Origin: Gammaproteobacteria bacterium
GTDB taxonomy: Bacteria; Pseudomonadota; Gammaproteobacteria; UBA4575
Direction: 5' to 3'
Assembly: GCA_028279275.1 (NCBI GenBank)
Contig: JANQOB010000018.1
Coordinates: 124,001 to 188,000 of the forward strand
DNA length: 64,000 bases
Shown here: one piece after another, positions 33,457-46,108 of the stretch
How the letters are laid out: every line of letters starts with the position of its first letter
How positions within the stretch are numbered: the first letter of the stretch is position 1
The notes under the pieces: generated by a model
Seen by the model: the letters and a program-made list of their open reading frames with translations, nothing else
The model's database searches: none
Told to the model about the DNA's origin: nothing
Made by a program: the position numbers and the translations under genes

Positions 33457-33912
33457 TTAGAGTGACGCGGGTGATGCATCTTTTATTTTTGGCCATTCCT
33501 TATCAGCCATTGCAATCCTTCCTGGGATGTCCTTTTCCCATTCTTTTTGAATATTCTCATCCAAGTTGAGATAAAGCTTTCCATCCACTATCTTCCATAC
33601 AGTCGGATCACCTACAAATTTTTTACCTACAGATACACCATAAGCACAGTATCCACCATATGCGGGTAGGTATTTTTGTGGATTTTTATTAAACGCCTTC
33701 ATGTTTTTTTTGGTTGAAAACAAGTAGGTCACACCCTCATGATCTGAGACATAATGGCCATTTCCACGCACAGGGCCTGTTTCACTTTGATAGGAAACCA
33801 CATCATAACCTTGTACACCTGGAGTGCTGTTTGCATGAATGTTAGCTGCAAATAAACTGGTGCTAACACCAGCTAAGAACAATATTGATATTAAGAAAGT
33901 AATTAGTTTCAT
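33457..33912 (-). CDS. secreted YHS domain protein
   Basis: 151 aa: signal peptide (MKLITFLISILFLAGVSTSLFA) and a YHS domain with GVQGYDVVSY, FSTKKNMKAFNKNPQKYLPAYGGYCAYGVSVG and GDPTVWKIVDGKLYLN. YHS domains are short metal-associated domains; this exported version is common but functionally undefined. The start is ATG 33912 because AAAGGAG lies 7 nt upstream; an in-frame ATG at 33957 would put 15 residues before the signal peptide. It follows the glutaredoxin gene by 206 bp with no visible promoter or terminator between, so it may be the last gene of the sigma-54 operon. Confidence 0.9.
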   Translation of the reverse strand: MKLITFLISILFLAGVSTSLFAANIHANSTPGVQGYDVVSYQSETGPVRGNGHYVSDHEGVTYLFSTKKNMKAFNKNPQKYLPAYGGYCAYGVSVGKKFVGDPTVWKIVDGKLYLNLDENIQKEWEKDIPGRIAMADKEWPKIKDASPASL

Positions 33913-34118
33913 TTCTCGCTCCTTTAATAAATTAAATAAAATTTTGGCTTTTTTCATTAAGCCCTTCCGTATATATGCCCACTATTAATAGCATGATTAC
34001 TCCAGTGGTTAATGTTCAGAAGTCTTATGCATCTTCATCTCAATTTTTTATGTTTTTTCTCTCATAAGTTTCAGTATTTCAATTTTGTCTAAGCCACCTA
34101 CATCCTATTACTTAATTA

Positions 34119-34785: not shown

Positions 34786-35013
34786 TTAAGCTTGACCGTT
34801 GTAATCTTGCTTAAGCTTGTCGGTATCAACTATGAACTTACGAGCTTCAGCATTAAATTTATCAAGAGGACCTTGAACAACAATTTCTGGTTTGTTGTTG
34901 TCGCGAGCTTCATAGTCAGTTGCTTGTGCGGTATCAATTGACAATCCCCCTTGCGCCCATGCAAAGTTGGTGGCTGCAAGTAATACTGCTGTTAATAGTG
35001 CTTTTGCTTTCAT
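34786..35013 (-). CDS. small secreted protein, first gene of sigma-54 operon
   Basis: 75 aa: a signal peptide of 20 residues (ending NFAWA) and a 55-residue mature part that is charged, cysteine-free and includes NNKPEIVVQGPLDKFNAEAR. No family is recognised. AAGGAGAT stands 5-6 nt before the ATG. It is the first gene after the sigma-54 promoter at 35083-35100, separated by a leader with a hairpin, and so is likely to be strongly expressed when the divergent activator is active. Confidence 0.82.
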   Translation of the reverse strand: MKAKALLTAVLLAATNFAWAQGGLSIDTAQATDYEARDNNKPEIVVQGPLDKFNAEARKFIVDTDKLKQDYNGQA

Positions 35014-35082: not shown

Positions 35083-35100
35083 GTGCATACAACGTACCAA
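35083..35100 (-). promoter_or_regulatory. sigma-54 promoter P1
   Basis: Minus strand reads TTGGTACGTTGTATGCAC: -24 GG at 35098-35097, exactly 10 nt, then -12 GC at 35086-35085. This matches the RpoN consensus TGGCACG-N4-TTGCA except at two positions. It faces the 75-aa secreted protein gene, and a divergent sigma-54 activator gene starts 190 bp away. Confidence 0.85.
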
Positions 35101-35202: not shown

Positions 35203-35289
35203 TTTGTATTCAAGGTGAGCAATTAATGCCTTGAAAAATTATCGTATTGAATAAAAGAATAATTAGTGATTTATATGGAGGTATGCTCC

Positions 35290-36792
35290 ATGTCTCAATC
35301 AGAATCTATCGACCTATATAATGACGAATCAGAAAGGTTCTTACTTGAACACGACCTGATCCTAGAATCTGCAGGAGAAGGTATTTATGGTATTGATGCA
35401 CAAGGACGTGGAAGATTTGTTAATAAATCTGCAAAAGATTTATTAGGCTGGGATGTTGATGATTTTAGAAAAACTAATTCTCATGACGCACACCACCATA
35501 CTAAGGCTGATGGATCACCCTATCCAAAAGAAGAATGTCCAATTTATGCTGCTTTAAGGGATGGGAAAGTACATCGATGTGATAATGAAGTTTTTTGGAG
35601 CAAAGATGGTAAAGCCGTTCCTGTTGAATACACGAGCACGCCAATTATCAAAGGAGATGAAATAATTGGGGCAGTCGTTGTTTTTCGAGATATAACGGAG
35701 CGAAAACAAACAGCACAAAGACTAGAAAAAGCATTTGAAGATATTCAAAAATTACATATTGCTTTAAAAAAAGAGCGTGACTATTTAAGAGAGGAAGTCG
35801 AACATACTGTAAAATTTGGCGACATTATTGGCGAAAGTCCAGCGCTGAAGCAAATGTTAGTTCAAATTGAAGCGGTTGCTTCTACACCAGCCAATGTTTT
35901 AATTTATGGTGAGTCTGGTACTGGAAAAGAACTTACCGCACGTGCGATACATAATCGTAGTGATCGCTCAAAAAGCCCTCTAATAAAAGTAAATTGTGCA
36001 TCTATTCCCAAAGAATTATTTGAAAGCGAATTTTTTGGTCATGTTAGAGGCTCATTTACAGGTGCACATCGAGACCGTGTAGGGCGATTTGAACTCGCTC
36101 ATGGGGGGACTTTGTTTTTAGATGAAATAGGTGAAATCCCATTAGATTTGCAAAGCAAGTTACTTAGAGTATTACAAGAGAGCGAGTTTGAAAGAATTGG
36201 TGATGAAAAAACAAGAAAAGCTGATGCTAGAATAATTGCGGCAACTAATCGTGACTTACAAAGTGAAGTCGAAAAGGGAAACTTCCGAGAAGATTTATTT
36301 TACCGCCTGAGTGTTTTCCCGATTGAGGTGCCTCCTCTTAGAAATCGGCGTGAAGATATAGTCCCGCTTGCACTTCACTTTATGAACAAACAGTGCGCTA
36401 ACATGGGAAAATGCGACTATAAGCTCACTCGTGAACAAGGACGGTTGCTCGAGAATTATAGTTGGCCTGGAAATATACGGGAACTTGAACATGTAATTGC
36501 AAGGGCCGCAATTTTATCAAAAGGCAAAAAGCTATTATTAGACCCAAATTTATTTAGCTCTGAAGAATCAATTGTCCATGATGAAACTCATTCATCAAAA
36601 AAACTCAAAAAATCAAAGTTTTTAACAGCAGACGAATTTAAACAAAAAGAGAAACAAAATATTATTGCAGCTTTAGCTGAAAGCAATTGGAGAGTTGCTG
36701 GGAAAGATGGTGCAGCAGAACTATTAGGGCTAAAACCAACCACGTTGGCACATCAAATGAAAAAACTGAATATTCGAAAACCTGCACTATAA
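35290..36792 (+). CDS. PAS domain sigma-54-dependent transcriptional activator (first)
   Basis: 500 aa: an N-terminal PAS domain (about residues 20-140, with a HHHTKADGSPYPKEECPIY loop), a coiled coil, a RpoN-interacting AAA+ domain (about 175-400) and a Fis-type HTH (about 455-500). Walker A is GESGTGKE, the sigma-54 contact loop is GSFTGA and Walker B is TLFLDEIGEI. The start ATG 35290 follows GGAGG by 9 nt. It has no receiver domain, so it senses a ligand or redox signal through PAS rather than phosphorylation. It is divergent from P1, its probable target. Confidence 0.92.
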   Translation: MSQSESIDLYNDESERFLLEHDLILESAGEGIYGIDAQGRGRFVNKSAKDLLGWDVDDFRKTNSHDAHHHTKADGSPYPKEECPIYAALRDGKVHRCDNEVFWSKDGKAVPVEYTSTPIIKGDEIIGAVVVFRDITERKQTAQRLEKAFEDIQKLHIALKKERDYLREEVEHTVKFGDIIGESPALKQMLVQIEAVASTPANVLIYGESGTGKELTARAIHNRSDRSKSPLIKVNCASIPKELFESEFFGHVRGSFTGAHRDRVGRFELAHGGTLFLDEIGEIPLDLQSKLLRVLQESEFERIGDEKTRKADARIIAATNRDLQSEVEKGNFREDLFYRLSVFPIEVPPLRNRREDIVPLALHFMNKQCANMGKCDYKLTREQGRLLENYSWPGNIRELEHVIARAAILSKGKKLLLDPNLFSSEESIVHDETHSSKKLKKSKFLTADEFKQKEKQNIIAALAESNWRVAGKDGAAELLGLKPTTLAHQMKKLNIRKPAL

Positions 36793-38644: not shown

Positions 38645-38935
38645 CTAGACCCCATTGATAAACACAGCATTTGATTTTGTAGCTTCCAAACGTATTGCCT
38701 TTAATTCACTATATTCATCAGATTCATACCAATTACGGGCATCCTCCAAGCTGGGAAATTCAATCATTACTGGATAAATTGGCTTCCAATCTCCTTCAAC
38801 AATTTCACATTGACCTCCTAGTACTAGATAACGGCCATTAAATTGCTCAACAACTGGGCCTACACGTTTCTTGTATACCTCAAGTTCTACAGGATCTGTA
38901 ACTTTCAAATTATCGAATAAACAATATGCGGACAT
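38645..38935 (-). CDS. DUF1330 protein
   Basis: 96-aa cytoplasmic protein of the DUF1330 family (dimeric alpha-beta barrel, related to EthD and monooxygenase-like folds). YKKRVGPVVEQFNGRYLVLGG and the characteristic PVMIEFPSLEDARNWYESDEYSELKAIR are present. Its biochemical role is unknown. It follows the protoglobin gene by 64 bp, with a hairpin between, and is probably part of the same sigma-54 transcript. Confidence 0.92.
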   Translation of the reverse strand: MSAYCLFDNLKVTDPVELEVYKKRVGPVVEQFNGRYLVLGGQCEIVEGDWKPIYPVMIEFPSLEDARNWYESDEYSELKAIRLEATKSNAVFINGV

Positions 38936-38999: not shown

Positions 39000-39650
39000 T
39001 TAAAATTCATTTGCATTGATGTATGGATGGCTCCATAAAATCGTCTGCATCAATACAGATTTAACCCATGCTTGATGCATCGCATTTACTTCCTCTGGTG
39101 AATATTCACTGCGTTCAAGAAAAGGTTTTAATGTTGCTGTCACGGGATAAAGCAAAGCCACTACATATCTGAAGTGTATATGGTCTACTGATTGCACATC
39201 ATCTATCTTGTTTTTCCCTATATGATGATGGCGCTTGGCTATCTCATACTGATAGTTCAGCCAATCCTGATCATAGTTTGCATCTGCTGTATCGTAGACC
39301 CACTGAATAAACCGTGCGCGCACTCGTGCTAGATAATTAGCATCTGCCTCGCCTTTCTTATTTGAAAAGTAGTAAATCAGATGAGGATGTGAACCAACGA
39401 ATCCATACCAAGTATCTAAAATTTCTTCTGCATGTGGTTCAAGGACTTTACGACTTTTACGCAACCATTTGGCATCATCCTCTGTAAATAACACAGTGGT
39501 TTTTAACAACTGCAAATCTTTCAAGGTATAGGGTGCTGTCTCTAGATTTGATTCACCATACGCATAACCTGGAATGTCTTTCGCACTGAGATTGTTGGTG
39601 ATCAAAACAAAAAGTAACGAAAAGATAATTAAACTAATTGATTTATACAT
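39000..39650 (-). CDS. protoglobin with signal peptide
   Basis: 216 aa: a signal peptide (about residues 1-23, LITNNLSA) then a protoglobin domain. The best match to the family is the stretch EIAKRHHHIGKNKIDDVQSVDHIHFRY and VALLYPVTATLKPF (residues 136-178). H141-H143 include the candidate proximal heme ligand, and W81/Y82 and F84 lie in the distal region. Protoglobins bind O2, CO and NO and are usually cytoplasmic; export would be unusual. AAGGAG lies 8 nt before the ATG. It is transcribed from sigma-54 promoter P3. Confidence 0.88.
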   Translation of the reverse strand: MYKSISLIIFSLLFVLITNNLSAKDIPGYAYGESNLETAPYTLKDLQLLKTTVLFTEDDAKWLRKSRKVLEPHAEEILDTWYGFVGSHPHLIYYFSNKKGEADANYLARVRARFIQWVYDTADANYDQDWLNYQYEIAKRHHHIGKNKIDDVQSVDHIHFRYVVALLYPVTATLKPFLERSEYSPEEVNAMHQAWVKSVLMQTILWSHPYINANEF

Positions 39651-39697
39651 TTCATATTCTCCTTCTAACAGTTTTTCAAAAAAGTACCCCCAGGTAA

Positions 39698-39715
39698 TTG
39701 CATTAACCGTGCCAA
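39698..39715 (-). promoter_or_regulatory. sigma-54 promoter P3
   Basis: Minus strand reads TTGGCACGGTTAATGCAA, with GG (39713-39712), 10 nt, GC (39701-39700). It is the closest of the three to the RpoN consensus. The predicted start, near 39688, gives a 38-nt leader to the protoglobin ATG, the same as for P2. Confidence 0.88.
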
Positions 39716-39770: not shown

Positions 39771-39814
39771 GAAATTTAAAAAATAATTTCTAAATTTCAT
39801 GGAACAATATTCCA
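39771..39814. promoter_or_regulatory. candidate activator sites upstream of P3
   Basis: Two candidates lie 83-126 bp upstream of the predicted P3 start. One is GAAATTT at 39771-39777 and AATTTCTAAATTTC at 39785-39798, a degenerate form of the CGAAATTTCG site near P2. The other is the palindrome TGGAA-CAATA-TTCCA at 39800-39814. Either could bind the 40665 activator. The rest of the 39651-39949 gap holds nothing else I can identify. Confidence 0.4.
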
Positions 39815-39949: not shown

Positions 39950-40444
39950 TTACTCGTAAATAATGTCAAACGGTCTTGTATAGGCTAGATAAAAGATGCA
40001 AGGCTCTTTCTTTCCACAGATCAAAGTATGTGGCGGTGCATTACCAGGAAAGCTAATATAGGCTGGGCCACGAAATTTTTTCTCATCGCCTCTATCAGAA
40101 ATTAAAGTAAATTCTCCACTAATCCACATATACAATTCTTCTGAAGTATGCGTATGACTTGGTACATGGTAGCCAGGTGGAATACGTAATATAGATTCAC
40201 TCCCAGCCTTGCCTAAATCACCACGAATGTGTGCGATTTCAGCACCTTTTGGCAACCCTTCAACTTCGAGAGGTTCATAAACCAGTTTGTCTACATCGAC
40301 AATAGTTTGATCAGCGCCGAATGCAATTGGTTTTTTATTTGATCCTAATTCATGCGCATAACCTTGTGAAAAAAGCACACTAATAGAAATAACGAATAGT
40401 AAATGGATAAAGAAATAATAATTACTGAGTTGATTTGCTTTCAT
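39950..40444 (-). CDS. secreted cupin-domain protein
   Basis: 164 aa: signal peptide (residues 1-30, ending SQGYA) and one cupin domain. H97, H99, E103 and H139 (SHTHTSEELY ... PPHTL) match the standard cupin metal-ligand set. C143 and C149 could form a disulfide. The start ATG 40442-40444 follows CAGGAG and sits 38 nt after the predicted P2 start; a GTG at 40609 would lie upstream of the promoter and is rejected. Function (metal-dependent dioxygenase, isomerase or binding) is open. Its neighbours are the protoglobin and the divergent activator. Confidence 0.87.
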   Translation of the reverse strand: MKANQLSNYYFFIHLLFVISISVLFSQGYAHELGSNKKPIAFGADQTIVDVDKLVYEPLEVEGLPKGAEIAHIRGDLGKAGSESILRIPPGYHVPSHTHTSEELYMWISGEFTLISDRGDEKKFRGPAYISFPGNAPPHTLICGKKEPCIFYLAYTRPFDIIYE

Positions 40445-40491: not shown

Positions 40492-40509
40492 TTGCATCAA
40501 CCGTACCAA
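40492..40509 (-). promoter_or_regulatory. sigma-54 promoter P2
   Basis: Minus strand reads TTGGTACGGTTGATGCAA, with GG (40507-40506), 10 nt, GC (40495-40494). It differs from P3 at only two positions. It drives the cupin gene. Confidence 0.87.
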
Positions 40510-40664: not shown

Positions 40665-42101
40665 ATGAACGATAAAAACTTATATCAATTCTTTTATGAA
40701 AAAACGCCTGTGATGTTACAGGCCATTGATAGTGATGGTGTTATGCAAGCCGTTAGTAAGAAGTGGCTTGAGAAATTAGGCTTTGAAGAACATGAAGTTA
40801 TTGGCAAAAAAGTATTTGAGTTCTTAAGCGAGGAAACCAACACTGCACTATTTTCGGGTTTATTAAAACAAATAATTGATAAAGGTGAACTCTCTAACCA
40901 AGTAATAGAGTGTGTAAAGAAAAATGGAGATATTTTCGAAGCCATTGCATCAGCAGAAGTTATTTACGATGAAGAAGAAAACCCTAAAAGCATAACGTGG
41001 GCGCTATATGACGTTGAAGATGCCGATGCGATACCTCCCAATACTAACCATCACATTAAACAACTTATTCGGATTAAAAACCAACTCATAGATGAAAGAG
41101 ATTACCTACGTGACGAATTAAATCTGGTAAAAGAGAAGTATCCTTTAATCAGCCAATCTCTTGCTATGCAGCATTTATTTGAGAAGCTTAAAGCCGTTTC
41201 TCAAACTGATGCAACGGTATTGATCTTTGGTGAAACTGGATCAGGAAAGGAAGTCGTTGCAAGCACTATAGTTAAACAAAGTGGACGTGCTGATAAACCT
41301 TTTGTAACCATTAATTGTTCATCCGTTACTAGAGATTTATTTGAAAGTGAATTCTTTGGCCACGTGAAAGGATCATTTACTGGAGCACTAAAAGATCGAA
41401 AAGGCCGTTGGGAACTCGCAGATACAGGAACACTATTCTTGGATGAGATAGGTGAAATACCCCTAGAACTTCAGCCTAAGTTACTTCGTGCAATCCAGAA
41501 TAAAGAGTTCGAACGTGTGGGAGATGAAAAAACAAGACATGTTGATGTAAGAATCATTGCAGCGACCAATCGTAATTTAGAACAAATGGTAAAAGAAGGA
41601 AACTTCAGAGAAGATTTATTTTATCGACTTAATGTGTTTCCCATTGTAGTACCGCCCCTTCGAGAGAGATTGGATGATATTCCATTACTAACTAGACACT
41701 TCTTAGATGAATCATGTAAACGATTCAATAAACAGTGTTTCGGTTTAAATGAACAGACTGTAGATGAACTGAAAGAATATGATTGGCCGGGAAATATTCG
41801 AGAACTACAAAACGTAATTGAACGTGCTGTTATTTTAAGTAAGGGCACATCATTGCATGTTAATCCGGATTTATTAAAACAGCGCGACAACGCTGAAAAC
41901 TTAGAACACACGATATCCCCTACAAGACATGCCTTGCTAAAAGCGGATGAAATTAAACATCTTGAGCGAGAAAATATCAGAACCGCATTAAACAAAGCGA
42001 ACTGGAAAATATCAGGTAAAGGAAGCGCTTCAGAGTTATTGGGGATGAATGCGTCGACTTTAAACTCAAGAATTATCAAACTTGGTATAAAGAAAAATTA
42101 A
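40665..42101 (+). CDS. PAS domain sigma-54-dependent transcriptional activator (second)
   Basis: 478 aa with the same plan as the activator at 35290: PAS (about residues 8-120), a short coiled coil, the AAA+ sigma-54 domain (about 155-385) and a Fis-type HTH at the C terminus (GKGSASELLGMNASTLNSRI). Walker A is GETGSGKE, the contact loop is GSFTGA and Walker B is TLFLDEIGEI. The PAS sequence is quite different from that of the first activator and lacks its HHHT/CPI loop, so the two probably sense different signals. It is divergent from P2. Confidence 0.92.
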   Translation: MNDKNLYQFFYEKTPVMLQAIDSDGVMQAVSKKWLEKLGFEEHEVIGKKVFEFLSEETNTALFSGLLKQIIDKGELSNQVIECVKKNGDIFEAIASAEVIYDEEENPKSITWALYDVEDADAIPPNTNHHIKQLIRIKNQLIDERDYLRDELNLVKEKYPLISQSLAMQHLFEKLKAVSQTDATVLIFGETGSGKEVVASTIVKQSGRADKPFVTINCSSVTRDLFESEFFGHVKGSFTGALKDRKGRWELADTGTLFLDEIGEIPLELQPKLLRAIQNKEFERVGDEKTRHVDVRIIAATNRNLEQMVKEGNFREDLFYRLNVFPIVVPPLRERLDDIPLLTRHFLDESCKRFNKQCFGLNEQTVDELKEYDWPGNIRELQNVIERAVILSKGTSLHVNPDLLKQRDNAENLEHTISPTRHALLKADEIKHLERENIRTALNKANWKISGKGSASELLGMNASTLNSRIIKLGIKKN

Positions 42102-42116
42102 AATTATTATAATTCT

Positions 42117-42608
42117 CTATCTATCATTTTGTTCGTAATTAATTATATTTTTAATACCAAGTTTCCAGGCCTGTTTTCCTGAAGCTGTAATTGATATCTG
42201 AACAGTTCTTCGATCCTTTGGAACAAAATAATTTCGGCGAATTAGTCCTTTTGATTCCAACATATTTAAAACATTTGAAATTTGTGGATATGTATAATTT
42301 GTATGAGAACGTATGATCTTAGGGCCTGTAGTTTTTGAAATAACTACTTCATTTAGAACCCTCCATTCCTTTAAGCTAAGTTTTTTTCTTTTTAAAGTTT
42401 CATTTATACTTTTCTTCGCGCTTTCGTAATAATCTATTTTTTTAAGAAACTTCTGTGAGGTAATAGCAACCTCTTCTTCATGCAGATCATTTAATGATAA
42501 GTCATCTAATTTATAATATTTATTGTCGTCTAATTTATTTTTATATTTATTCTTAGTTGGATTATATGAATCCTGTAAATTGTTTTTTTCAATAATGCTT
42601 AATTTCAC
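42117..42608 (-). CDS. MarR family transcriptional regulator
   Basis: 163 aa. Residues about 70-155 form a MarR winged helix: LSLKEWRVLNEVV, the recognition helix YPQISNVLNMLESKGLIRR, then the wing with the family motif DRRTVQISITASGKQAW. The N-terminal 60 residues are Asn/Lys/Asp-rich and probably disordered. It converges on the second sigma-54 activator with a 15-bp gap. The target is unknown. The gap upstream (42609-42785) is AT-rich with no clear operator. Confidence 0.85.
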   Translation of the reverse strand: MKLSIIEKNNLQDSYNPTKNKYKNKLDDNKYYKLDDLSLNDLHEEEVAITSQKFLKKIDYYESAKKSINETLKRKKLSLKEWRVLNEVVISKTTGPKIIRSHTNYTYPQISNVLNMLESKGLIRRNYFVPKDRRTVQISITASGKQAWKLGIKNIINYEQNDR

Positions 42609-42785: not shown

Positions 42786-44405
42786 TTATAAACCAGCTAT
42801 TTGACTAGTATCTTGAATTTCTTCGAAGCTGTCGATATCTAGATTAAATGTCACCAGAGCGGTAGTGCCCTCATTAATCTCACTACTCAAATTAAAATTA
42901 ATCCCATGTGCGCTCATGATAGCTCTTGCAATTGAAAGACCCAACCCCATCCCTTTATCATGTTTCTCTTGGGCGCGTTTGCCACGAAAAAAGCGGATCG
43001 TGCTCTGGTCTTTCTCATCCTGAGTCATACCTATTCCAGTATCACTTATTTTTACGTCTGCAAGATTCTGCGTTGCACTTGATCTGGCAATAATTTCAAT
43101 TGTTACTTCTCCACTTGGCTTAGAATACTTGATCGCATTGTCGATTAGTATACTAAACAGTTGTTTCAATCTCCTTGGATCTCCCTCTATTAAGCTATCG
43201 TGATCGCACGTAAATAAGAGCTTAACTTGATTTTGCTTAGCAATCTCTTGCATTTGTTCTTTAACATTAGACAAAAGAGTACATAATGAAAGTGTAGTTA
43301 TATCTAGCACAGGTTTTCCTGTTTCAGAACGCGCTATAAACAATAAGTCATCTACTAAAGAACCAAGTTGTTCACATAGCTCGACAATTCGTTTAAGCGC
43401 AGTACTGTCATTATTATTTAGATATTTACTAGATCGAAGCCTCACCTCTGATATACCTCGTATTGCAGTTAAAGGAGTTCTTAACTCATGTCCTAAATCT
43501 GCTAAAAACTCTCGACGGGTTTCGTCTATTTGTAAAAGCTTTTGATTAGCATCTTCAAGCTCGGTAGTGCGTACTTTAATAAGGTTCTCTAGCTGAGCTT
43601 TTGTATAGGTATGATTACTTAATTCATTAGACATCCAATGAATTGATTGTGCCAGCTCACCCAATTCATCCTGACGACTAGTGAGCTTGGTTTTAATACC
43701 ATACTCTCCTTGACCAATTCTTCGTGTTTGATCAGCTAATGTAAGAATCGGTTGCGAAAGATGTCGTGAGATTAATACGCCACCTAATACTGCTAAAACA
43801 CACATCATAATTGCTAATAGTGTAGTCAGTAAAAAGTCTCGTAGATCATTACTTTTAATAATGCCCTCTAGCTCAGATTTCAAATCCTGGATATGAGAAT
43901 CAACATAATCAAGTTTAAATTCAAGGTAGATACCCCCCAATACTCTCTTATCTATATGAACTGGTGCGCAAACTTTTAAAAAGTCATTTTTTCTTTCCGA
44001 GATAGTTTGAAAATTTGAATTAATTACATTTAAAATTTCTGAAGGAATTTGTGTACCAAAATCGCTAACGTCGTCTGTACCGTCATGAATTAACACTCCT
44101 TGAGCATCAAATACTAATAGTTTAGATACACGTGGTAGCTTACGGGCAGATTTGGCAACATTTGCGATATTTTCAAAGTTGTCTACTGCTATTGGTTCAA
44201 CAAGGCTGTCTGTAAGCGTCATTGTTAATGCTCGTGCCGCATTTTCATTCTCAATATAAAGAGATTCAGACATGGCATTAAAACTTGATTGCACTAATTG
44301 TGACTCCATATGCTTATGTCGTAAGACCATTGCTGCAGATATTGTTAATATGATCAATACCGAAACTGATCCAATTATTAATACATACTGTTGGCGTAGT
44401 TTCAT
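42786..44405 (-). CDS. sensor histidine kinase
   Basis: 539-aa inner-membrane kinase: helix 1 (about residues 8-29), a periplasmic sensor region to about 190, helix 2 (about 192-214), HAMP, HisKA with the phospho-acceptor in FLADLGHELRTPLTAIRG, and HATPase_c with NAIKYSKPSGEV, DTGIGM and GMGLGLSIA. It follows the PhnD-like binding protein by 11 bp and the response regulator by two genes in one minus-strand operon. The close linkage suggests that the binding protein presents the ligand to its periplasmic domain. Confidence 0.93.
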   Translation of the reverse strand: MKLRQQYVLIIGSVSVLIILTISAAMVLRHKHMESQLVQSSFNAMSESLYIENENAARALTMTLTDSLVEPIAVDNFENIANVAKSARKLPRVSKLLVFDAQGVLIHDGTDDVSDFGTQIPSEILNVINSNFQTISERKNDFLKVCAPVHIDKRVLGGIYLEFKLDYVDSHIQDLKSELEGIIKSNDLRDFLLTTLLAIMMCVLAVLGGVLISRHLSQPILTLADQTRRIGQGEYGIKTKLTSRQDELGELAQSIHWMSNELSNHTYTKAQLENLIKVRTTELEDANQKLLQIDETRREFLADLGHELRTPLTAIRGISEVRLRSSKYLNNNDSTALKRIVELCEQLGSLVDDLLFIARSETGKPVLDITTLSLCTLLSNVKEQMQEIAKQNQVKLLFTCDHDSLIEGDPRRLKQLFSILIDNAIKYSKPSGEVTIEIIARSSATQNLADVKISDTGIGMTQDEKDQSTIRFFRGKRAQEKHDKGMGLGLSIARAIMSAHGINFNLSSEINEGTTALVTFNLDIDSFEEIQDTSQIAGL

Positions 44406-44416
44406 GTAATTATGTT

Positions 44417-45394
44417 TTAGTAATCAAACTCAGCAAACAGTTTGCGTGCATACTCAAGATCCTCAGCTGCATCATCAACAAGTTGATCAAATCGGGCTAC
44501 TTTAAAAAAGTCATGCAGGACCTTTTTCCCTTCTTCGCTTTCGTGCATTTTTGTTAAGAGAAAAATAATTCGCTCTTCGATATCAGGAGAAATATCTGAT
44601 CGGGCAAGAAACAATGAACGTATGATGTTTGGAGTTGTATGAAATACTCTCAAGTCTCGCTTTAAACCTTCAGGCGCTTGATTTGGATCGATCCAGTCCA
44701 GATTGCTTATAGCTCCAGCATCACTCTTTCCTCGTAAAATTGAGTAAAGAATATTTTCTTCTGAATAGCTGAAAGTGTAGCTTACGGTATTCTGCATCGG
44801 ATTAAATTTTGAACTCCCTTGCAGCTGTACATCCAATCCATTATTTTTAAGTGAGAGCATCGGTACAAAAAAAGCCGAAGTAGATCCAGGGTCCTCAAAA
44901 GCAATTTTACGACCTGCAAGATCGCTAAGATGGTTAACTTGGCTATTTTTGTGAGTAATAAAATGTGTTTGATAAGAAGATGTACCGTTTTTCCATTGTC
45001 TTAGTATGATTTTCGCATCAGCCTCTCTTTCAAAAAATAGTGCTGAAAATGGAGTATCACAAAGAAAATCAATTCTGCCTTCTTGTAATTCTTGAATCAT
45101 TTCATCTTTGTTTCGAGGAAAGTTTATTTCGAAACTTTTTATTCCAAAATCTTCCAAGTGTTTAACAAGATATTTTCCAAGGCTATCAAAAGCCCGATAA
45201 TGCCTGCGTGGGCCTTGTGAAACACGACCAAGAACTATGATTTCATTTCTTGCATATTTATTAATTACGTCGTTATTAGTATTTTCTGCATGTATAGGTT
45301 GTTGCAAAAATAAAAGAAAAAATATTATTAAGAATGACTTAATAAATACTAATTTTTTATGAACCAAATTTTTTAGCAAAGATGTAAAAAACAT
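44417..45394 (-). CDS. PhnD-like periplasmic substrate-binding protein
   Basis: 325 aa with a hydrophobic signal segment (about residues 16-36) and a type II periplasmic binding fold of the PhnD/SsuA/transferrin group. LGKYLVKHLEDFGIKSFEINFP, LQEGRIDFLCDTPFSALFF, LAGRKIAFEDPGSTSAFFVP and RGKSDAGAISNLDW are its typical blocks. No ABC permease or ATPase is nearby. Its place between a response regulator and a histidine kinase points to a sensory rather than a transport role. The ligand could be phosphonate, phosphite or another oxyanion. Confidence 0.9.
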   Translation of the reverse strand: MFFTSLLKNLVHKKLVFIKSFLIIFFLLFLQQPIHAENTNNDVINKYARNEIIVLGRVSQGPRRHYRAFDSLGKYLVKHLEDFGIKSFEINFPRNKDEMIQELQEGRIDFLCDTPFSALFFEREADAKIILRQWKNGTSSYQTHFITHKNSQVNHLSDLAGRKIAFEDPGSTSAFFVPMLSLKNNGLDVQLQGSSKFNPMQNTVSYTFSYSEENILYSILRGKSDAGAISNLDWIDPNQAPEGLKRDLRVFHTTPNIIRSLFLARSDISPDIEERIIFLLTKMHESEEGKKVLHDFFKVARFDQLVDDAAEDLEYARKLFAEFDY

Positions 45395-45409
45395 GATTAT
45401 CCTAATTTA

Positions 45410-46108
45410 TTAGTTACCATTATTGACAGTGGAATCATGAAGCTTATAGCCAAATCCACGCACGGTATGAATAAGTGGAAATTTATTAGACCTGTCAATT
45501 TTATTCCGCAAATGTCGTATGTATACTTCAACGACGTTCGTAAATGGGTCGCTGTCATAGCCCCAAACATTATCAAGTATGTTTGTCTTACTAACTACTT
45601 TCTCAGCGTGGAGCATTAAATAAGCAAGGAGGGTAAATTCTTTTGGTGTCAGGTCTATTTTTTTACCATTACGCGTGACTTCATAAGTTTCTTCATCAAG
45701 AACAAGATCTGCAAACTTGAGTACTCTTGGTGATTGCTTTTGATAATCACTACTACGACGTATTAAAGCCTTAATTCGAGCAAGTAATTCTTCGAATGCA
45801 AAGGGCTTAGCTAGATAGTCATCTGCACCAATTTTTAAACCTAAAACACGATCATCAACAGTATCTAATGCAGTCAGCATTAATATCGGAATTCTTATGC
45901 CTGTACTTCTAATATGACTGCAGAGAGCTCTGCCATCAACTCCAGGCAATAAAAGATCCAATATGATTGCGCCATAGTCCGAATAAGGCATAAAGTCTTT
46001 TGCGGTTTGCCCATCTTTAATAACATCGACGAGATAGCCTTCAGCTTGCAGCCCAGGCTGAATAAATTCAATTATTCGATCATCATCTTCAATCAACAGT
46101 AATTTCAT
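45410..46108 (-). CDS. OmpR/PhoB family response regulator
   Basis: 232 aa. The receiver domain (residues 1-120) has the acidic pair EDDDR, the phosphorylated aspartate in ILDLLLPGVDG and the lysine in DDYLAKPF. A winged-helix DNA-binding domain follows (LTPKEFTLLAYLML, VVEVYIRHLRNKID, TVRGFGYKL). It is the first gene of the operon with the binding protein and kinase, and the promoter should lie in 46109-46200. Confidence 0.95.
   Translation of the reverse strand: MKLLLIEDDDRIIEFIQPGLQAEGYLVDVIKDGQTAKDFMPYSDYGAIILDLLLPGVDGRALCSHIRSTGIRIPILMLTALDTVDDRVLGLKIGADDYLAKPFAFEELLARIKALIRRSSDYQKQSPRVLKFADLVLDEETYEVTRNGKKIDLTPKEFTLLAYLMLHAEKVVSKTNILDNVWGYDSDPFTNVVEVYIRHLRNKIDRSNKFPLIHTVRGFGYKLHDSTVNNGN

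Follow-up and report, generated by a model that had tools for sequence, protein, structure and literature searches.

A protoglobin with a predicted signal peptide belongs to a recurrent, apparently exported branch of the family in diderm bacteria

The protoglobin family, known from the cell interior, appears on sequence evidence also to work outside the inner membrane. The window (the whole 64,000-nucleotide gammaproteobacterial stretch analyzed here) encodes a protoglobin with a predicted Sec leader, a member of a known family with a recurrent exported branch, of which the searchable literature yielded no earlier account. The role outside the inner membrane is probably directed against reactive nitrogen and oxygen species; the specific reading that we favor, a periplasmic, mostly ferric protoglobin that would scavenge such species, is given a probability of about 0.4.

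The open reading frame encodes a full-length protoglobin of the Methanosarcina type plus an added leader (Table 1). An initial annotation of this DNA had placed a clear globin domain here; its coordinates are right, with the reading frame on the minus strand, and the domain is borne out by Pfam (PF11563 spanning residues 44–215, 114.4 bits against a curated cut-off of 25) and by phmmer, which aligns residues 22–216 on residues 2–195 of the archaeal protoglobin MaPgb (PDB 2veb). Key residues of MaPgb are W60 (B9), Y61 (B10), R90 (E8), F93 (E11), and the proximal H120 (F8) (PMC3680402). They correspond to W81, Y82, R111, F114, and H141, such that proximal HisF8 and distal TrpB9, TyrB10, and PheE11 are all present, and none of the pocket residues W/Y/R/F/H varies across the 88-sequence set described below. 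An AlphaFold2 monomer model of residues 24–216 (mean pLDDT 96.5) was superposed on MaPgb, a comparison that the initial annotation had proposed as a check, and matches it with a TM score of 0.97 and an rmsd of ~1 Å over ~192 columns. The model reproduces the heme-burying N-terminal extension of MaPgb, about 20 residues long, together with the Z-helix and the extended CE/FG loops of protoglobins. The protein ends at the globin, and the fused C-terminal signaling domain of globin-coupled sensors is absent.

Table 1 Features of the protoglobin locus, in window coordinates
Feature	Position	Strand	Remarks
Protoglobin gene, 216 aa	39000..39650	minus (ATG 39650, stop 39000)	PF11563 6.3e-33; MaPgb 5.5e-73
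Predicted Sec signal peptide, residues 1–23, MYKSISLIIFSLLFVLITNNLSA	39582..39650	minus	hydropathy 3.27; independent, divergent signals in orthologues
Mature protoglobin domain, residues 24–216, without cysteine	39003..39581	minus	residue comparison with MaPgb and model
Ribosome-binding site AAGGAG	39659..39664	minus	8 nt from ATG, read in sequence
Sigma-54 -24/-12 element TGGCACGGTTAATGCA, protoglobin	39699..39714	minus	48 bp upstream of start codon; one mismatch to TGGCAC-N5-TTGCW
Palindrome TGGAACAATATTCCA, candidate upstream activator site	39800..39814	.	~86 bp above -24 box; weak, by eye
Exported cupin-domain protein (predicted), leader MKANQLSNYYFFIHLLFVISISVLFSQGYA	39950..40444, ATG 40444	minus	PF07883 1e-6; leader also in 74% homologue from another genus
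Sigma-54 element TGGTACGGTTGATGCA, cupin	40493..40508	minus	counterpart TGGCACAGTTGATGCT in genome G007
DUF1330 gene	38645..38935	minus	64 bp downstream of protoglobin; also beside protoglobin in Acaryochloris
PAS/AAA+ sigma-54-dependent activator, divergent from cupin	40665..42101	plus	PF00158 6.7e-70; activator-cupin pair kept in G007
Paralogous PAS/AAA+ sigma-54-dependent activator	35266..36792	plus	PF00158 1.9e-73
Sigma-54 element TGGTACGTTGTATGCA, upstream of 75-aa exported protein	35084..35099	minus	shared pattern
75-aa predicted exported protein, candidate regulon member	34786..35013	minus	no known family

The leader displays n-, h-, and c-regions, is followed by KDIPGY, and ends just before the position of the MaPgb N-terminus. 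It carries the marks of a Sec/SPase-I signal, namely the K3 charge, the core LIIFSLLFVLI, and Ala at -1, with a less than ideal Leu at -3, and its peak 9-residue hydropathy ranks fifth of the 54 window open reading frames, among evident exported and membrane proteins. Signal peptides were called by our own heuristic, which scores hydropathy and the cleavage site and was supplemented in part by manual inspection, and on this basis the hydrophobic export signal of about 23 residues claimed initially is recovered as a predicted Sec-type leader of 23 residues; an uncleaved membrane anchor is a possible alternative to a cleaved leader. A cytoplasmic protein whose apparent leader results from a wrong start codon or an annotation error is extremely improbable: an in-frame TTG at codon 16 would yield a short cytoplasmic form, but AAGGAG precedes the ATG and none precedes the TTG, so that the leader should be translated and the shorter start is unlikely, and leaders of the same design occur in seven of seven relatives from the clade of the window protein. 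Leaders of seven clade members are 31% identical compared with 73% for the mature domains, as expected of a signal sequence selected for physical properties only. Likewise, the orthologue on an Agarilytica plasmid, 70% identical over residues 22–216, has a different leader of like design.

A scan of GTDB genomes returned at least 580 protoglobin relatives, of which the best 80, ranked against the signal-bearing query, were taken. Plasmid relatives, a sequence from one additional genome, MaPgb, and the window protein complete the 88-sequence set. SPase-I- or lipoprotein-type leaders are found in 48 of the 88 classified sequences, a share that gives no frequency estimate for the family, as the set is biased to a signal-bearing query. 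Exported forms span about seven diderm phyla (Pseudomonadota, Planctomycetota, Bacteroidota, Bdellovibrionota, Myxococcota, Ca. Eiseniibacteriota, and, with a single and less secure member, Acidobacteriota), and the haloarchaeal, Methanosarcina, and Chloroflexota members of the set are without leaders. Median leader hydropathy is 2.5 in exported and 0.9 in other forms, with overlapping distributions and some unexported entries that include untranslated upstream codons. Exported and unexported states require 6 changes on the tree compared with ~29 for shuffled labels, and a single exported clade is rejected (AU p = 0.019); export therefore arose or disappeared on more than one occasion. The window protein falls into a clade of eight exported gammaproteobacterial proteins (SH-aLRT 97). 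The initial annotation held that a periplasmic form would be a new setting for the family. As judged from these predicted leaders, the observation is somewhat bigger: the protein is no isolated oddity, and diderm bacteria contain several groups of exported MaPgb-like protoglobins. Searches of the accessible literature, a scope outside which most subscription papers lie, turned up no account of a single-domain protoglobin that is exported.

Among 93 other genomes related to the host, three congeners included, no protoglobin match was obtained, and we therefore regard the gene as accessory. Its GC content (0.379 vs 0.380 for the window) bears no foreign mark. Viral contigs yielded no relative, and the tandem single-domain globins of genome G392 were unmatched in a phmmer search with the window protein. 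MaPgb-like protoglobins are also encoded on plasmids of Agarilytica, Cupriavidus, Acaryochloris, Hymenobacter, and haloarchaea (L036–L041), the Hymenobacter plasmid copy adjoining a hexameric tyrosine-coordinated heme protein. Lipoprotein-type leaders occur on the protoglobins of loci L051, L053, L054, L055, L061, L066, L072, and L074, for instance LLGC in Enterovibrio and Grimontia, which suggests membrane-anchored forms. The Photobacterium proteolyticum gene (L043, about 8310) contains one in-frame stop after ~residue 103 and is either a pseudogene or affected by a sequencing error.

Exported and other forms further differ in cysteine content. A mature cysteine is present in none of the 48 exported and 15 of the 40 other forms (Fisher 1.3e-6, MaPgb counted with its native CysE20), a contrast that is not phylogenetically independent and is weakened by shared descent, the cysteine state changing only twice on the tree. 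Cysteine-free mature domains would fit an oxidising compartment; CysE20 of MaPgb was itself mutated to prevent intermolecular disulphides (PMC4020757).

Neighborhoods of the relatives contain recurrent partners. A MarR-family gene lies near the protoglobin in 45 of the 88 loci, exported or not, mostly directly upstream or divergent. Listed MarR members (L036, L042, L045–L048, L050, L073, L105, and others) share a C-terminal cysteine cluster, CxxC...HxC...C, a tail covered by no Pfam or NCBIfam model in the proteins scanned. TlpA/AhpC-TSA-like redoxins are found in 19 loci, 18 of them classed SP, and 13 loci, every one of them SP, contain an AhpD-like peroxidase-related enzyme, both usually downstream and on the same strand as the protoglobin; many of these loci are near-identical Nitrotoga, yet 9 and 5 changes, respectively, are still required on the tree. 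Di-heme cytochrome c peroxidase and YghU appear at single loci only. These neighbor genes suggest a link to peroxide and thiol stress. The redoxin and the AhpD-like enzyme, however, have the look of cytoplasmic proteins and hence cannot act on the same pool as the exported globin. In the window, no redoxin, AhpD-like, or cysteine-cluster MarR gene adjoins the protoglobin, and only weak generic matches to the redoxin and this MarR type were obtained elsewhere in the host genome. The MarR-like gene at 42117–42608, without the cysteine cluster, was rejected as a candidate for the usual MarR partner.

The local setting is instead one of sigma-54-type promoters. Sigma-54 control, claimed initially, gains sequence support from the -24/-12 element read from 39714 to 39699 and from an RpoN encoded in the genome (491.7 bits), and the cupin reported next door is there, with its real start at 40444 and also with a leader. 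As a setting for the family the original description holds only in part: promoter and cupin are found here, but relatives often lie beside a cysteine-cluster MarR gene instead. The joint pattern TGGYACGNTNNATGCA has three sites in the 2.7-Mb genome, all at these exported genes; as these three sites also served to define the 16-mer, the informative part of this result is that the pattern is absent elsewhere. Allowing one mismatch, the window contains 3 sites compared with 0.12 expected. The gene of the 75-aa exported protein is divergent from the second PAS/AAA+ activator, and the DUF1330 gene is likely on the same transcript as the protoglobin. G007, from another genus of the family, keeps the activator-cupin pair and a related promoter and has no protoglobin match; in the simplest history, the protoglobin and DUF1330 genes would have entered an older sigma-54-controlled cupin locus. 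Two further observations concern the surroundings. An exported YHS-domain protein is encoded at 33457–33957, 5 kb from the protoglobin, and its homologue (3.9e-40) is the immediate neighbor of the Alteromonadaceae M269 protoglobin (L044, position -1). A histidine kinase, an exported binding-protein-like gene (PhnD-like by eye), and a response regulator form one run on the minus strand at 42786–46108.

This setting could be taken for a catabolic or detoxification route, in which a periplasmic heme enzyme would act on a small organic or peroxide substrate together with the cupin, the DUF1330 protein, and an alpha/beta hydrolase. The matching promoter of the exported cupin, the DUF1330 gene close downstream, and the hydrolase nearby favor such a route, but the cupin is found near none of the relatives and DUF1330 only at Acaryochloris, and many exported relatives lie among redox and peroxidase-like genes, so that we consider it unlikely. 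An exported sensor or carrier that binds O2, CO, or NO in the periplasm and relays the signal to a partner in the membrane, for example the histidine kinase at 44405–42786, would agree with the reshaping of the MaPgb distal pocket upon ligand binding (PMC3680402) and with the kinase, binding-protein, and response-regulator run 3 kb away. The protoglobin, however, is without an output domain, neither a kinase family nor a membrane sensor is conserved beside exported relatives, and the PAS/AAA+ activators, having no export signal, should be cytoplasmic. The lack of an output domain and of a conserved adjacent membrane sensor makes sensing less likely, and we rate its probability as low.

For the favored periplasmic scavenger, properties of MaPgb offer a route. 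Ferric MaPgb isomerises peroxynitrite at 3.8x10^4 M-1 s-1 with no reductant consumed, and ferrous MaPgb autoxidises within minutes, with a half-life of 3.6 min (PMC4020757). Sec would take the protoglobin to the periplasm, where its 23-residue leader would be removed and the mature protein would fold around heme b in the manner of MaPgb, with tunnels giving access to the buried heme. It would be mostly ferric in the oxidising periplasm and may remove peroxynitrite, NO, or peroxide before any of these enters the cytoplasm. RpoN, together with one or both neighboring PAS/AAA+ activators, would switch on the protoglobin, the exported cupin, and the small exported protein; many relatives may use the neighboring cysteine-cluster MarR regulator instead, along with thiol-peroxidase-like partners. 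A protoglobin of Nitrosococcus oceani, which may or may not be an exported form, is co-expressed with nitrosocyanin and NO reductase (PMC3772326). A periplasmic NO dioxygenase or O2 store, in which a periplasmic electron donor would sustain cycling via the ferrous oxy form, is a further candidate, as NO dioxygenation is described as common among globins (PMC3820574) and nitrifiers such as Nitrotoga have exported forms. The rapid autoxidation of MaPgb speaks against such a cycle, as do the missing reductase domain and the lack of a conserved periplasmic donor in the neighborhoods, and we find it quite improbable.

The biological role of protoglobins has been described as unknown, with only two characterised by 2014 (PMC4020757, PMC3680402). 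Export narrows the possible roles, as a protein of the envelope is barred from cytoplasmic metabolism and must either work without a reductant or draw on one in the periplasm. Since exported forms occur in named Photobacterium, Enterovibrio, Dyella, and Advenella isolates, the family role is testable by gene removal, and the cysteine-cluster MarR gene near 45 of the 88 loci provides a second handle on the signal. Tentatively, exported protoglobins may constitute a functional branch of their own within the globin superfamily, with more than one gain or loss in diderms, that would comprise cysteine-free ferric heme enzymes of the envelope under the control of a new type of cysteine-cluster MarR sensor; in this lineage they would have come under a local sigma-54 regulon of exported proteins.

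Compared with known systems, the window protein has its best solved relative in MaPgb, with 54% core identity, the same fold including the N-terminal extension, and the five pocket residues kept; unlike MaPgb, which has CysE20 and no export signal, it has a leader and no cysteine. The Aeropyrum pernix protoglobin (PDB 7ute) is of the same family (TM 0.91, 47% identity), but its solved chain starts about where MaPgb does, without a leader. Orthologues from Photobacterium, Alteromonadaceae M269, Teredinibacter, and Agarilytica pSU1 share clade and leaders at 69–73% identity, whereas most of them (not M269) lie near a cysteine-cluster MarR gene rather than sigma-54 activators and a cupin. Globin-coupled sensors (HemAT, AfGcHK, BpeGReg) have a related globin fold (TM ~0.65), but are fused to signaling domains and reach at most 18% identity to the window protein.
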